A program made the translations under genes and the position numbers. From Desulfitobacterium dehalogenans ATCC 51507 (GTDB lineage Bacteria > Bacillota > Desulfitobacteriia > Desulfitobacteriales > Desulfitobacteriaceae): a DNA stretch of 64,000 bases. Position 1 is the stretch's first letter, and the number at the start of each line of letters is the position of its first letter. The notes beneath the pieces were generated by a model. That model was not told the DNA's origin. It searched no databases and saw nothing but the letters and a program-made list of their open reading frames with translations. This document shows positions 10,506-63,693 of this stretch, in pieces. Location of the stretch: assembly GCF_000243155.2 (NCBI RefSeq), contig NC_018017.1:3906001-3970000 (forward strand), given 5' to 3'.

Positions 10506-10725
10506 CTATGATACGTTGTATTATTTTATATATTATTCGGTATCCTTCGATAAATTCCTACATTGGGAAAAAAAGAACTTTGTGACTAAAAAAAACTTTC
10601 TGATTTTACCCCATTTATTAGCATTTTCAGATTAGCATTTAGGGTTTTAAGTTTCTTATAAGTTTTAGGATAGCTATTCATGCCGCTGGCGGCACCGGCA
10701 GAGGAATAAAAAACGGCTCGGGTCA

Positions 10726-10970
10726 CGTAGCTTTACGCACAACGTTTACTCTATAGCTCCGGGGCTGGTCAACTCGCTTTCTTAACAGCTACGCCAAACC
10801 CCGCTGCTTTCTGTATGTGAACCGGTGGCTGCGCTACGTTAAGAAAGCTTTCGTTAACCCGACCGCCCCTCCGCTTAAAGAAAGCTTGGCTTATGGTGAG
10901 TGAAGCGAAGCAGAAGACTTAGCTGCCTTATACACAGTGAAATCCGTTCACTTTTGTGCGTAAAGCTACG
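10726..10970 (+). repeat. Module A of R1
   Basis: Closed by a perfect 17-base inverted repeat (10726-10742 with 10954-10970, core GTAGCTTTACGCACA). A second stem inside is GCTTTCTTAAC (10776-10786) with GTTAAGAAAGC (10838-10848). Just outside it, CGGGGC and GCCCC arms also pair. Confidence 0.8.
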
Positions 10971-11073
10971 CTTGCGGGTCTTTTTCAGCTCTGTTTTCGG
11001 GCTTTAGCACCAGCAGAGGATGAAAAAGCTTGTTTGGATCGGGTAGCAGCACCGCTCAGACCCGAAAGACAGC

Positions 11074-11310
11074 CCAAGGATTTTGCTTTAAGGTAGGGAA
11101 CGAATTTAAGCGAGCAGGTAAGCAATCTTCGCTAAAAGACTGCAGCGGAGTCGGGTTGGAAACAGGACGTTTCCAACCGGCTATGAGAACAAGTGCGAAA
11201 GCAGTGCTTTCGAGGAGCCGATTTAGCCGGGAACCCGACGCAGTGGAGGTCTTGAGCGATTAGATTGCTCCGCGCAGCTTATGGAGTGAGCGCCGAAAGC
11301 AAAATCTTGG
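11074..11310 (+). repeat. Module B of R1
   Basis: Outer arms CCAAGGATTTTGCTTT (11074-11089) and AAAGCAAAATCTTGG (11296-11310). Inside are GCAATCT/AGATTGC (11122, 11262), AAGAC/GTCTT (11136, 11249) and GTCGGGTT/AACCCGAC (11150, 11232). Next is a hairpin with perfect 10-bp arms (11154-11163, 11169-11178; loop AGGAC), then a GGCTA/TAGCC hairpin (11179, 11224). Confidence 0.8.
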
Positions 11311-11520
11311 AGAATCAGCTTTCAGGTCTTTTTCAGGGTAGCCCCCCCATGCCGCAAGCGGCATCGGCAGAGGATGAAACGTGGTCCTCCGGAATTATAA
11401 AGATTAATTAACTACCCTCTTCCCCATGCAATATGATATAATTTTTACACAAGTAAGAATTATTAAACAAAATCGAGCAATGATATCGAACAAACGATCT
11501 GAATTTGTGAGGTAGAAAAT

Positions 11521-27091: not shown

Positions 27092-27209
27092 AGTATTTTC
27101 TCCTCTCTCAATCTTGGTTGGTTTTTGGATCTTTTGGGGGCTTCATTTGGGATCTTTGCTGGGGTCGTTCTATCTCTTTATTGGGGTCACTGCTCTTTAT
27201 TTGGGTCAG
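27092..27209. repeat. Degenerate short tandem repeat upstream of fadE
   Basis: Between 27130 and 27209 the phrase TTTGGGGTC / TTTGGGTC recurs four or five times, spaced by CT-rich bases (for example CTTTATTGGGGTCACTG, CTCTTTATTTGGGTCAG). It abuts repeat R2. It may be a relic of element insertion. Confidence 0.4.
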
Positions 27210-27388
27210 GTAGCTTTTCGCACATCATTCACTCATTAGCTCCAGGGCTGGCGCTCCCGCTTTCGCAGCAACTCCGCCAAACCTCAGGGTAATACCTGAA
27301 GTGAACCATGGCTCCGCTACCGCTACGAAAGCTTTGTTCGCCTGAACGCCCTTCCGCTAAAATCGTTCATTCTTGTGCGAAAAGCTAC
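27210..27388 (+). repeat. Module A of R2
   Basis: Outer arms GTAGCTTTTCGCACA (27210-27224) and TGTGCGAAAAGCTAC (27374-27388) differ from the other copies by one A:T to T:A swap on both sides. The inner arms are GCTTTCGCAGC (27259-27269) and GCTACGAAAGC (27322-27332). The loop holds a CCTCAGG-type hairpin. Confidence 0.8.
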
Positions 27389-27496
27389 GCTTATTCTGCA
27401 TGTAAGATCAGGTAATTCTTTGAAGTCTAAGCTGAGGCGGGAAACCTGTCTTCCCGTCTTCCTATCTTCCTATCCCACCGTATCGCAAAAGAAGAC

Positions 27497-27715
27497 CCAA
27501 GGATTTTGCTTGACAGTAGAGAACGGCTTCTAAGCGAGCAGTTAACCGTTCTTCGCGAAGAGCTTACAGCGGAGTCGGGTTGGAAACAGGACGTTTCCAA
27601 CCCGCTAGAGAGCCAAGGATGGCGATTTAGCGGGGAACCCGACGGAGCTGAAAGCTTGAGCGATTAGAACGGGTACGCGCAGCTTATAGAGTGAACGGGG
27701 CAAGCAAAATCCTGG
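27497..27715 (+). repeat. Module B of R2
   Basis: Arms TTTTGCTTG (27504-27512) and CAAGCAAAA (27701-27709). Inside are CCGTTCT/AGAACGG (27546, 27666), GAGCT/AGCTT (27560, 27653), GTCGGGTT/AACCCGAC (27574, 27636) and CGCTA/TAGCG (27603, 27628). The central hairpin with loop AGGAC is unchanged from other copies. Confidence 0.8.
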
Positions 27716-27737
27716 AGAACGCTCGTGAACAGTGGCC

Positions 27738-36355: not shown

Positions 36356-36410
36356 GCCGGATGCAGCTTGGGCGGCACCGGTAGAGGACGAAAAGTGTTG
36401 TCTGGGTCAT

Positions 36411-36674
36411 GTAGCTTTACGCACAACGAACCTTCGGGCGTGAGCTCCTGAAACCCTCCACCGGAGGCTTTCTTCATCGGAGCACACGTACTCCATAGCT
36501 CCAGAGCTGGTTAACTCGCTTTCTTAACAGCATCTGCAGCGGATAAGAACCCTTTGGGGTGTGCCGCTTTGAGCGAAACTGTCCACCGGACACTTTCGTC
36601 GCCAAACCTTTGAGCAGAAAGCCTTAGCTGCCTTATACACAGTGAAAGCCGTTCCCTCTTGTGCGTAAAGCTAC
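36411..36674 (+). repeat. Module A of R3
   Basis: Outer arms GTAGCTTTACGCACAA (36411-36426) and TTGTGCGTAAAGCTAC (36659-36674). It contains an inserted palindrome with arms CGTGAGCTCC (36439-36448) and GGAGCACACG (36479-36488), and the left inner arm GCTTTCTTAAC without its partner. Confidence 0.75.
36531..36598 (-). repeat. Double-hairpin mini-element (in module A of R3)
   Basis: 68 bases; read on the minus strand it goes CGAAA-stem-TTTCG, CTCAA, AGCGG...CCGCT, GCAGATG. It replaces a 5-base loop present in R1, giving a clear insertion relative to the empty site. It is nearly identical to the copy at 63424-63491. Confidence 0.75.
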
Positions 36675-36745
36675 GCTTGCGAGTCTTTTCGTGTCCTTTC
36701 TGGGGTCATTCTTTTCATCTGCAACCCCCAAGCCCGAAAGACAGG

Positions 36746-37045
36746 CCAAGGATTTTGCTTTAAGGCAGAGAACGGATTCTAAGCGAGCAGGTAAGCAATC
36801 TTCGCGAAAAGACTGCAGCGGAGTCGGGTTGGAAACAGGACGTTTCCAACCGGCTATGAGAACAAGTGCGAAAGCAGTGCTTTCGAGGAGCCGATTTAGC
36901 CACGAAACCCGGGCGAGGGTTTCGCCCAAGCCGCCACCCCACAGAGACTACTTAGCGGCGCAGGTGCACCCGGCGCAGCGGAGGTCTTGAGCGATTAGAT
37001 TGCTCCGCACAGCTTATAGAGTGAACGCCGAAAGCAAAATCCTGG
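36746..37045 (+). repeat. Module B of R3
   Basis: Outer arms CCAAGGATTTTGCTTT (36746-36761) and AAAGCAAAATCCTGG (37031-37045). It is 63 bases longer than B of R1, the difference being one mini-element between the GGCTA/TAGCC hairpin and the CCCG right arm. Confidence 0.8.
36903..36966 (+). repeat. Double-hairpin mini-element (in module B of R3)
   Basis: 64 bases: CGAAACCC/GGGTTTCG hairpin, CCCAA, GCCGC...GCGGC hairpin, GCAGGTG. It is absent at the same place in R1 and R2, and present in R4. Confidence 0.75.
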
Positions 37046-37151
37046 AGATTCAGCCTTCAGGCTTTTGCTGCATAGCCGGATACCATCAGCGATAGGGAAA
37101 ATTGAGATACTAAATAAATGGGTTCACCAACCCATGAGAGGGGTAGCATCG

Positions 37152-37937
37152 ATGAGTTCATACAATGATTTTACAGTGGAGAAAAAAGGGGCTATAGCCC
37201 TTGTTACCTTAAACCGTCCCAATAAGGGAAATTCCTGGACCTTAGATACTTACCAGGAGATGGAGAAAATTCAGGAGGACCTTCATTATGATGATGAGAT
37301 CCGGGTGGTTATCTTCACCGGAGCAGGGGATAAATTCTTTTGTGCAGGTGCCGATCTCTCTCTTTTAGCCAAGCTTAACTCTCATTTTATCTCACGTGAT
37401 CTGTATCGCTATCAAGGCATTAACACCCGTTGGGATCGTTTTATTAAACCCGTCATTATGGCAATCAATGGCATCACCGTGGGAAGTGGTTTGGAGCTGG
37501 CCCTATGTGGAGATATCCGCATTGCCTCAAGTTCCTCTGTCTTTTCCATTAACGAAGTGCGTATTGGTCTTAACCCGGATATGGGAGGAACGCAACGTCT
37601 GACACGAACTGTCGGCCCCAGCCAAGCCAAACGCCTTATCTTCACTTCCGAGCGGATCGATGCTCAAGAAGCAGCTCGCATCGGACTTGTGGATATTGTG
37701 GTAGAGTCGGAAAATTTATTGGATGAGGCCTTTAATATGGCTGAACAGATTGCCAATATGCCTCCTTATGCCATTCGCTTTGCTAAAAAAGCCATTAACC
37801 TGGCTGTGGATGCTCCTTTAGAAGTAGGGCTGATGTATGAAGAAGCCGGCTCCACTTTCTGCATGGGTACAGAAGACAAAAAAGAGGCCATCACCTCTAT
37901 CCTGGAAAAACGCGAACCAAAATTCCATGGCCGCTAA
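37152..37937 (+). CDS. Enoyl-CoA hydratase/isomerase family protein (crotonase)
   Basis: The start is ATG 37152, nine bases after GAGAGGGG; upstream in-frame ATGs lie within repeat R3. The 261-residue product has the crotonase oxyanion-hole segments FTGAGDKFFCAGADLSLL and GLELALCGDIRIASSSSVFSINEVRIGLNPDMGGTQRL, with a Glu in the INEVRIGL position. It hydrates enoyl-CoA or isomerises double bonds in the cytoplasm. It duplicates the hydratase half of FadN, so it probably acts on short-chain or unsaturated intermediates. A bidirectional terminator follows. Confidence 0.9.
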   Translation: MSSYNDFTVEKKGAIALVTLNRPNKGNSWTLDTYQEMEKIQEDLHYDDEIRVVIFTGAGDKFFCAGADLSLLAKLNSHFISRDLYRYQGINTRWDRFIKPVIMAINGITVGSGLELALCGDIRIASSSSVFSINEVRIGLNPDMGGTQRLTRTVGPSQAKRLIFTSERIDAQEAARIGLVDIVVESENLLDEAFNMAEQIANMPPYAIRFAKKAINLAVDAPLEVGLMYEEAGSTFCMGTEDKKEAITSILEKREPKFHGR

Positions 37938-37978
37938 CCGGAATCGCAGATTGGTCAAGTGATTCTCCGGAAGAAAAA

Positions 37979-54827: not shown

Positions 54828-54864
54828 ACGCCTGTCCTTAAGTTTCTAACTTAAGGACAGGCGT
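54828..54864 (-). terminator. T-box-controlled terminator
   Basis: The stem has 17-base perfect arms (ACGCCTGTCCTTAAGTT side and its complement) and a 3-base loop, followed by TTTTT. It lies between the T-box sequence and trpX and is the off switch of the riboswitch. Confidence 0.9.
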
Positions 54865-55085
54865 ATAAACCTGCGGTACCACCTTAATTGATGCATGAAA
54901 TAAACCATACATCCTCTCTTGCAGGGTGCCATCACACCCTTAGCCCAGTAACGCTGGCTATGCGTCGTAAGCTACTCATTGCTTTTCGCTCCGCCCTCAG
55001 GGGCCCATTTACTCGCTCCGTTACCTGCCAGGCTTCCACCTTCCCCGGCTCTCTTTAAGGCTGGTCTTGCGGTTTTACTTCCCCA
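54828..55085 (-). promoter_or_regulatory. T-box riboswitch sensing tRNA-Trp, controlling the trpXYZ-type operon
   Basis: On the minus strand the T-box sequence AGGTGGTACCGC lies at 54873-54884, followed by the terminator. Stem I contains AGAGAGCCGG and GGTGGAAG. The specifier loop reads AAATGGGCCCCTGAG, with TGG at 55005-55007 in the codon position. TGG is tryptophan. Uncharged tRNA-Trp would stabilise the antiterminator and permit transcription. The specifier call rests on alignment with known T-box stem I layout from memory. Confidence 0.88.
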
Positions 55086-55140
55086 TCAACAGTTTAGAAC
55101 AGTTTAGCATATTATTTTCCAGGAATCAATAGAGATTTAT

Positions 55141-62860: not shown

Positions 62861-62895
62861 TTTGCTATGCTGAAAAAGGCCCGAAAGCTGAATCT

Positions 62896-63171
62896 CCAGG
62901 ATTTTGCTTTCGGCGTTCACTCTATAAGCTGCGCGGAGCAATCTAATCGCGAAAGACCTCCGCTGCGTCGGGTGCACCTGCGCCGCTAAGTAGTCTCTGT
63001 GGGGTGGCGGCTTGGGCGAAACCCTCGCCCGGGTTTCGTGGCTAAATCGGCTCCTGCCTCATAGCCGGTTGGAAACGTCCTGTTTCCAACCCGACTCCGC
63101 TGCAATCTTTCGCGAAGATTGCTTACCTGCTCACTTAGAATCCGTTCTCTGCCTTAAAGCAAAATCCTTGG
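62896..63171 (-). repeat. Module B of R4
   Basis: Outer arms CCAGGATTTTGCTTT (62896-62910) and AAAGCAAAATCCTTGG (63156-63171). The right inner stem is CGCGAAAGA/TCTTTCGCG, replacing the imperfect pair of R1 and R3. The GGCTA/TAGCC hairpin is shortened. Confidence 0.8.
62975..63038 (-). repeat. Double-hairpin mini-element (in module B of R4)
   Basis: 64 bases, identical in length and nearly in sequence to the copy in B of R3, at the same insertion point. Confidence 0.75.
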
Positions 63172-63423
63172 GCTGTCTTTCGGGTCTGAGCAGTGCAACT
63201 CTTTCGAAAAGACCCAAAAGAAGGGCCAACAAAGACGCGCAAGCGTAGCTTTACGCACAGGAGCGAACGGCTTTCACTGTGTATAAGGCAGCTAAGGCTT
63301 CTGCTTCGCTTCACTCACCATAAGCCAAGCTTTCTTTAAGCGGAAGGGCGGCCAGGTCAACGGGGCTTTCTTAACTTAGACGAGCCACCGGTTCACCTCA
63401 GGTATTACCCGGAGGTTTGGCTC

Positions 63424-63491
63424 CGAAAGTGTCCGGTGGACAGTTTCGCTCAAAGCGGCACACCCCAGAGAGTACTTATCCGCTGCAGATG
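63424..63491 (+). repeat. Double-hairpin mini-element (first in module A of R4)
   Basis: 68 bases, matching the copy at 36531-36598 in R3. Second stem is AGCGG/CCGCT, where the other type has GCCGC/GCGGC. Confidence 0.75.
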
Positions 63492-63564
63492 CTGTTAAGA
63501 AAGCGAGTGAACCAGCCCTGGAGCTATAGAGTACGTGAGCTCCGATGAAGAAAGCCTCCGGTGA

Positions 63565-63633
63565 CGAAACCATCCAGTGAATGGTTTCGCCCAAGCCGCC
63601 CTAGCCACAAAGATGAACTAAGCGGCGCAGGTG
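63565..63633 (+). repeat. Double-hairpin mini-element (second in module A of R4)
   Basis: 69 bases with first stem CGAAACCAT/ATGGTTTCG and second stem GCCGC/GCGGC. R3 has the host palindrome without this insertion at the matching point (near 36456), giving an empty site for comparison. Confidence 0.75.
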
Positions 63634-63693
63634 GGTTTCAGGAGCTCACGCCCGAAGGTTCGTTGTGCGTAAAGCTACGCGACCCGAGCAAAT

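Follow-up and report, generated by a model that had tools for sequence, protein, structure and literature searches.

A probably mobile intergenic repeat of Desulfitobacterium with a covarying hairpin core

The window, a 64,000-nucleotide stretch of the single 4.32-Mb chromosome of Desulfitobacterium dehalogenans ATCC 51507, contains four copies, R1 to R4, of a repeat in which two long hairpins, modules A and B, are joined by a middle segment. Their positions, with those of the arms discussed below, are as follows.

10674-11341, plus strand: R1, whole element; the left end is set by a GTAG-hairpin remnant, the right end reads ..CTTTTTCAGGGTAG
10727-10970, plus strand: R1 module A, inner arms at 10776-10786 and 10838-10848
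11342-11379: further GTAG-type hairpin directly after R1
27210-27389, plus strand: R2 module A, a rod-like hairpin with outer arms GTAGCTTTTCGCACA and TGTGCGAAAAGCTACG, from folding and covariance model
27244-27248, plus strand: R2 AGGGC arm, partner GCCCT at 27348-27352
27259-27269, plus strand: R2 left inner arm, GCTTTCGCAGC
27322-27332, plus strand: R2 right inner arm, GCTACGAAAGC
27390-27496, plus strand: R2 middle segment, diverged; no recognisable counterpart of the GTAG hairpin seen elsewhere
27497-27718, plus strand: R2 module B, a long hairpin with arms CCAAGGATTTTGCTT and AAGCAAAATCCTGG
36357-37075, plus strand: R3, whole element; CCGGAT, present in both target and element, leaves the left end uncertain by 6 nt
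36411-36675, plus strand: R3 module A, right inner arm deleted
36746-37048, plus strand: R3 module B
62865-63690, minus strand: R4, whole element; high end approximate
63244-63679, minus strand: R4 module A, inner arms at 63494-63504 and 63365-63375
62893-63171, minus strand: R4 module B

A palindromic cassette, GGGTTTCGCCCAAGCCGCC..GCGGCGCAGGTG, lies inside module B of R3 (~36905-36968) and of R4 and again, in the opposite orientation, in module A of R4 (~63570-63635); pieces related to it stand free in other genera. The only Rfam match in the window at gathering score is a T-box leader (RF00230) at 54850-55098 on the minus strand.

An earlier note, made from the letters of the window, had placed the inner arms of R2 correctly and proposed that this stem covaries among the copies. 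R1 carries GCTTTCTTAAC from 10776 and GTTAAGAAAGC from 10838, as noted, and R4 lies on the minus strand. Pairs do differ between R2 and R1/R4, but in three of the 11 columns rather than four. Pairing is preserved by compensation in two of them (T-A to G-C and A-T to G-C), whereas the third is lost (T-A to C.A on the plus strand). The neighboring pair was also read correctly as GGGGC/GCCCC in R1 and AGGGC/GCCCT in R2 and R4; across 71 copies from the genus, this position is A.C in 30, G-C in 26 and A-T in 12, and pairing is not kept genome-wide. R3 indeed lacks the right inner arm, leaving GCTTTCTTAAC alone at 36518. The decayed look ascribed to it holds for this partial deletion. R3 inserted recently, as neither sister species, G002 or G003, has it. 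R2 is an old copy and, therefore, the divergent one of the window.

All four module A copies folded more stably than their shuffles, and the outcome that the earlier note had named as refuting its claim therefore did not occur. For R2 (27208-27392), z values were −5.4 as plus-strand RNA, −6.2 as minus-strand RNA and −3.9 as DNA, with none of 200 shuffles folding equally well; R1, R3 and R4 gave −5.1, −5.3 and −6.0, respectively. Module B of R2 folds more strongly than its module A (z −9.9).

DNA searches of the chromosome with R3 and R2 as queries identified at least 68 loci. Module A matched its covariance model at 66 or more places and module B at 57 or more, both counts being lower bounds. 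Inspection of open reading frames placed all loci between genes and none inside them. Most copies have module A, middle segment and module B in this fixed order on one strand, and each module is also found as a single unit. Elements mostly measure 400-850 nt, with module A at 180 nt and module B at 216 nt. The outer arms of module A are usually GTAGCTTTACGCACA and TGTGCGTAAAGCTACG, those of module B the CCAAGGATTTTGCTT and AAGCAAAATCCTGG seen in R2. The middle segment usually carries the GTAG-tagged imperfect hairpin GTAGCCGACCATGCCGC..GCGGCGTCGG, and this unit occurs at 46 places in the genome versus seven for a reversed control pattern. Extra cassettes of ~50-70 nt recur, nearly unchanged, at fixed spots within both modules and create module A length classes of ~180, ~240 and ~300 (R1 module A contains a 64-nt cassette). 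Orientation relative to replication, with the terminus at ~2.1 Mb by GC skew, was not significantly biased (41 of 68, p 0.11); a value of p 0.005 held only with the terminus placed too high and was dropped. Two module B units in opposite orientation, ~240 nt apart, were seen at G000:C1:4125092-4125771 in this genome and at G002:C14:38452-39053, apparently common to both species, and G003 also has divergent module B pairs (441641-442424 and 3124333-3125025).

Across 41 genomes, the module B covariance model matched in 17, all from a single family, and that of module A in 27, representing 12 of the 18 genera sampled and including a second family of the order. When the module A search was rescored on nine genomes, the best E-values were 1.5e-13 and 3.5e-14 in two genomes of that second family and ~1e-6 in two others. 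As judged from sequence distribution, this wider spread marks module A as the older part, an order-wide core of the element.

Copies from other genera showed that the covariation claim was right, although the four window copies alone were insufficient for it: among 40 diverse copies from the genus, the inner stem is near-invariant, with R2 the sole source of double changes at most inner pairs. A cross-genus alignment of 36 diverse module A copies (mean identity 54%) contained 33 distinct left inner arms, with pairs such as GCTTCCGTAGC/GCTACGGAAGC, GTTGACCTGGG/CCCAGGTCAAC and GTTGATTCAGC/GCTGAATCAAC. Watson-Crick pairs filled 80% of inner-stem cells versus 18-28% with slid partners, and nine of the 11 inner pairs had double changes in which each type recurred in three or more sequences. 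Over the whole shared structure, the Watson-Crick fraction was 0.76, compared to 0.49 after shuffling (maximum of 200, 0.52) and 0.22-0.33 after sliding. Double changes were present at 40 of 46 shared pairs; those with each type in at least three sequences numbered 36 of 53 pairs versus 8-20 when slid. All these margins are somewhat flattered, by less than the effect seen, as the alignment tested was also the source of the pair list. A few of the most distant copies (L331, L333, L334 and L343) do not pair in these columns, which most likely reflects a local shift of the alignment. Mean column identity was 0.72 in the apical segment and 0.48 in the inner stem, the best-conserved stretch being the apical GCCAAACC..GGGTAATACC..GTGAACC. 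Within the genus, covariation is more evident in module B, with single pairs split between C-G (51) and G-C (49) or between T-A (58) and A-T (45).

Long imperfect palindromes are prone to template-switch correction, and a purely mutational origin of these patterns was weighed, in which replication copies one arm of the quasi-palindrome onto the other and covariation is a by-product arising without selection. Such events produce clustered double changes of the kind seen in R2. They would, however, erase internal loops, and the asymmetric apical loops GCCAAACC and GTGAACC are the best-conserved parts over ~50% divergence and across families of the order; nor would they render A.C and G.U unequal (see below). 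We regard this origin as very improbable. Instead, the stem letters were rewritten with compensation while loops and apex stayed constant, and the fold itself has, therefore, probably been under selection.

Selection on a DNA hairpin is expected to treat G.T and A.C alike. Mismatches in module A across genera, read on the plus strand, comprised 104 A.C and 48 G.U, a direction shared by 27 of the 30 sequences that were informative. The G.U share of 0.32 lay below the shuffle range of 0.43-0.49; as these sequences are related by descent, the counts are indications rather than proof. A.C on the plus strand corresponds to G.U on the minus strand, and RNAalifold energies for module A were −77.8 on the minus and −70.3 on the plus strand. 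Together, these data form a moderate strand signal and suggest that module A acts as a minus-strand RNA, from the strand opposite to the one on which the earlier note had described it. Module B leans the other way and more weakly (G.U share 0.57, shuffle range 0.48-0.52). This conflict between the two strand signals led us to set aside, for now, a single RNA spanning both modules.

Comparison with the sister species revealed site-by-site differences. The sites of R1 and R3 lack the element in both, that of R2 is filled in G003 and empty in G002, and at that of R4, G002 has module B with almost no module A and G003 has nothing. Of further copies checked against G002, about nine of 16 sites were short (empty). 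In G011, from another genus of the same family, a 229-nt version is present in 17 copies that have exact ends and inverted terminal stretches, GATGAAAATAG and CTATTTTC, and differ by at most one base; the family has, therefore, clearly moved recently in that lineage. Degenerate heptamer arrays (such as GGAGTCA, GTAGTCA, GAATTCA and GTACTCA) flank nearly all G011 copies (L376-L388 and L397-L424) at one or both ends. These heptamers also recur nearby in both orientations and could be either target or insertion product.

The right end CTTTTTCAGRGTAG was present in 33 of 64 copies compared to three of 64 control stretches. Three sites that are empty in G002 show one GTAG or near-GTAG at the junction. 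At site 270077, for example, the empty G002 sequence GAAGAGTAGGCC corresponds in this genome to GAAGAGTAG, the element and GAAAGTAGGCC, the insertion adjoining GAGTAG with no other duplication. The pattern of IS200/IS605-derived (PATE-like) elements, which join directly 3' of a constant tetranucleotide and duplicate nothing, fits this site, R3 and 978440 (left side), other sites being degenerate. Exact-match target-site duplications occurred in 20 of 67 copies versus 19.95 in shuffled pairings, none beyond chance, and an 8-bp AGCCGGAT match at R3 was likewise at chance level. Junctions show only GTAG-like or heptamer contexts, and the ends are fuzzy in many copies.

On the strength of copy number, intergenic placement, presence or absence between species, recent amplification, folding and covariation, we consider it probable that the inner stem belongs to a non-autonomous, MITE-like or REP-like mobile repeat of the Desulfitobacterium lineage whose long hairpin is under selection. 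The element encodes no protein, consists of the long imperfect hairpins A and B between short GTAG-tagged palindromic ends and has an intergenic location. Its movement would presumably depend on a recombination enzyme acting in trans that recognises the ends or the folded hairpins and copies the element to new sites, and the module A fold would be selected, probably within an RNA from the minus strand.

This mobile reading is shared by a DNA-only alternative that differs at the RNA step. It treats the repeat as a palindromic element, REP/BIME-like or IS200/IS605-derived, in which a tyrosine (HUH) transposase acts on the hairpins as single-stranded DNA and joins at GTAG, the repeat having no function as RNA. 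We find it quite possible. The GTAG tag beside the imperfect hairpin of the middle unit, the GTAG at right ends and the 270077 insertion beside GAGTAG all fit such joining, and the movement of GTAG-type REPs is attributed to RAYTs (PMC3733652). On the other hand, selection at the DNA level should not prefer A.C over G.U, module A is several times the length of a REP and neither this genome nor G003 contains a RAYT. Only two Y1 transposase genes were found in this genome, both nearly identical IS200-like copies broken by a stop or frameshift (G000:C1:3340137 and 3415479; L125 and L126), and the element is absent from their ends. Many relatives have single-copy RAYT-like genes, and none of the Y1 transposase loci examined in them is flanked by the present element. 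The RAYT-type gene of G002 (G002:C8:99096-99431, L302) is flanked instead by an unrelated repeat, GGGGACAGG, which agrees with the GGGGWSAS termini that have been reported at TIRYT genes (PMC3733652); the syntenic spot in the window (~37936-37975) spans only ~40 nt and lacks the gene. With no flanking association, a RAYT was rejected as the partner of the element. A search of G011 with the left end of the element gave 29 such ends, several of them at contig edges, and revealed no autonomous or coding version.

Cross-genus covariation and conserved loops are also typical of functional RNA, and copies lie less often between divergent genes (five) than between convergent genes (13). Both would fit a host non-coding RNA or an element of mRNA 3' ends, with copies kept for regulation or mRNA stability and their spread secondary. 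However, sites are not conserved between species, no constant orientation relative to adjacent genes was found among the genome copies and the 17 almost identical G011 copies also count against such a role. We judge a host function unlikely as the primary explanation.

In its behaviour, the repeat resembles a MITE or a composite of GTAG-type REPs. Like GTAG REPs and BIMEs (PMC3733652), it is an intergenic, multicopy palindrome with an unpaired GTAG tag and units that combine in tandem, and its middle unit GTAGCCGACCATGCCGC..GCGGCGTCGG fits the description of a GTAG REP as an unpaired GTAG beside a short palindrome. Unlike REPs, which measure 20-40 bp (PMC3733652), the tagged hairpin here only bounds hairpins of 180 and 216 nt, and in contrast to the GTAG REP family, no RAYT is associated. 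Neither Firmicutes nor Desulfitobacterium appears in the text of the REP survey by Di Nocera et al. 2013 (PMC3733652). The GGGGACAGG repeat of the TIRYT/RAYT type is likewise intergenic in Desulfitobacterium but unrelated in sequence, and it flanks a single-copy Y1 transposase in G002, which the present element does not. With MITEs, the element shares the lack of an open reading frame, multiple copies, inverted terminal stretches, recent amplification and presence or absence between relatives; it differs in that no parental transposase and no consistent target duplication were found. We know of no ordinary MITE with a strongly covarying internal fold. The element is long, folded and non-coding like HEARO, GOLLD and ROOL in Rfam; no Rfam covariance model matched it in the window at the gathering threshold, and a relaxed threshold applied to R3 and 20 module A loci gave chance-level matches only. 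A published description was not found in the literature searched, in which subscription journals were sparsely covered.

A further, rather improbable extension holds that module A itself is a mobile structured RNA of ~180 nt, distributed across the order and predicted to be transcribed from the minus strand, whose fold would be recognised by an enzyme in trans that copies it elsewhere, for example, by reverse transcription. If true, such a mobile RNA would be a bacterial counterpart of SINEs. Should the broader reading of a mobile repeat under selection for its hairpin hold, the conserved folded core of mobile non-coding repeats in these bacteria is older than the genera, which to our knowledge is not usual for palindromic repeats. 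The element would then offer a directly testable case of a selfish element maintained through hairpin shape. It would also represent a structured family that is not yet listed and that, at dozens of copies per genome, escapes annotation pipelines.
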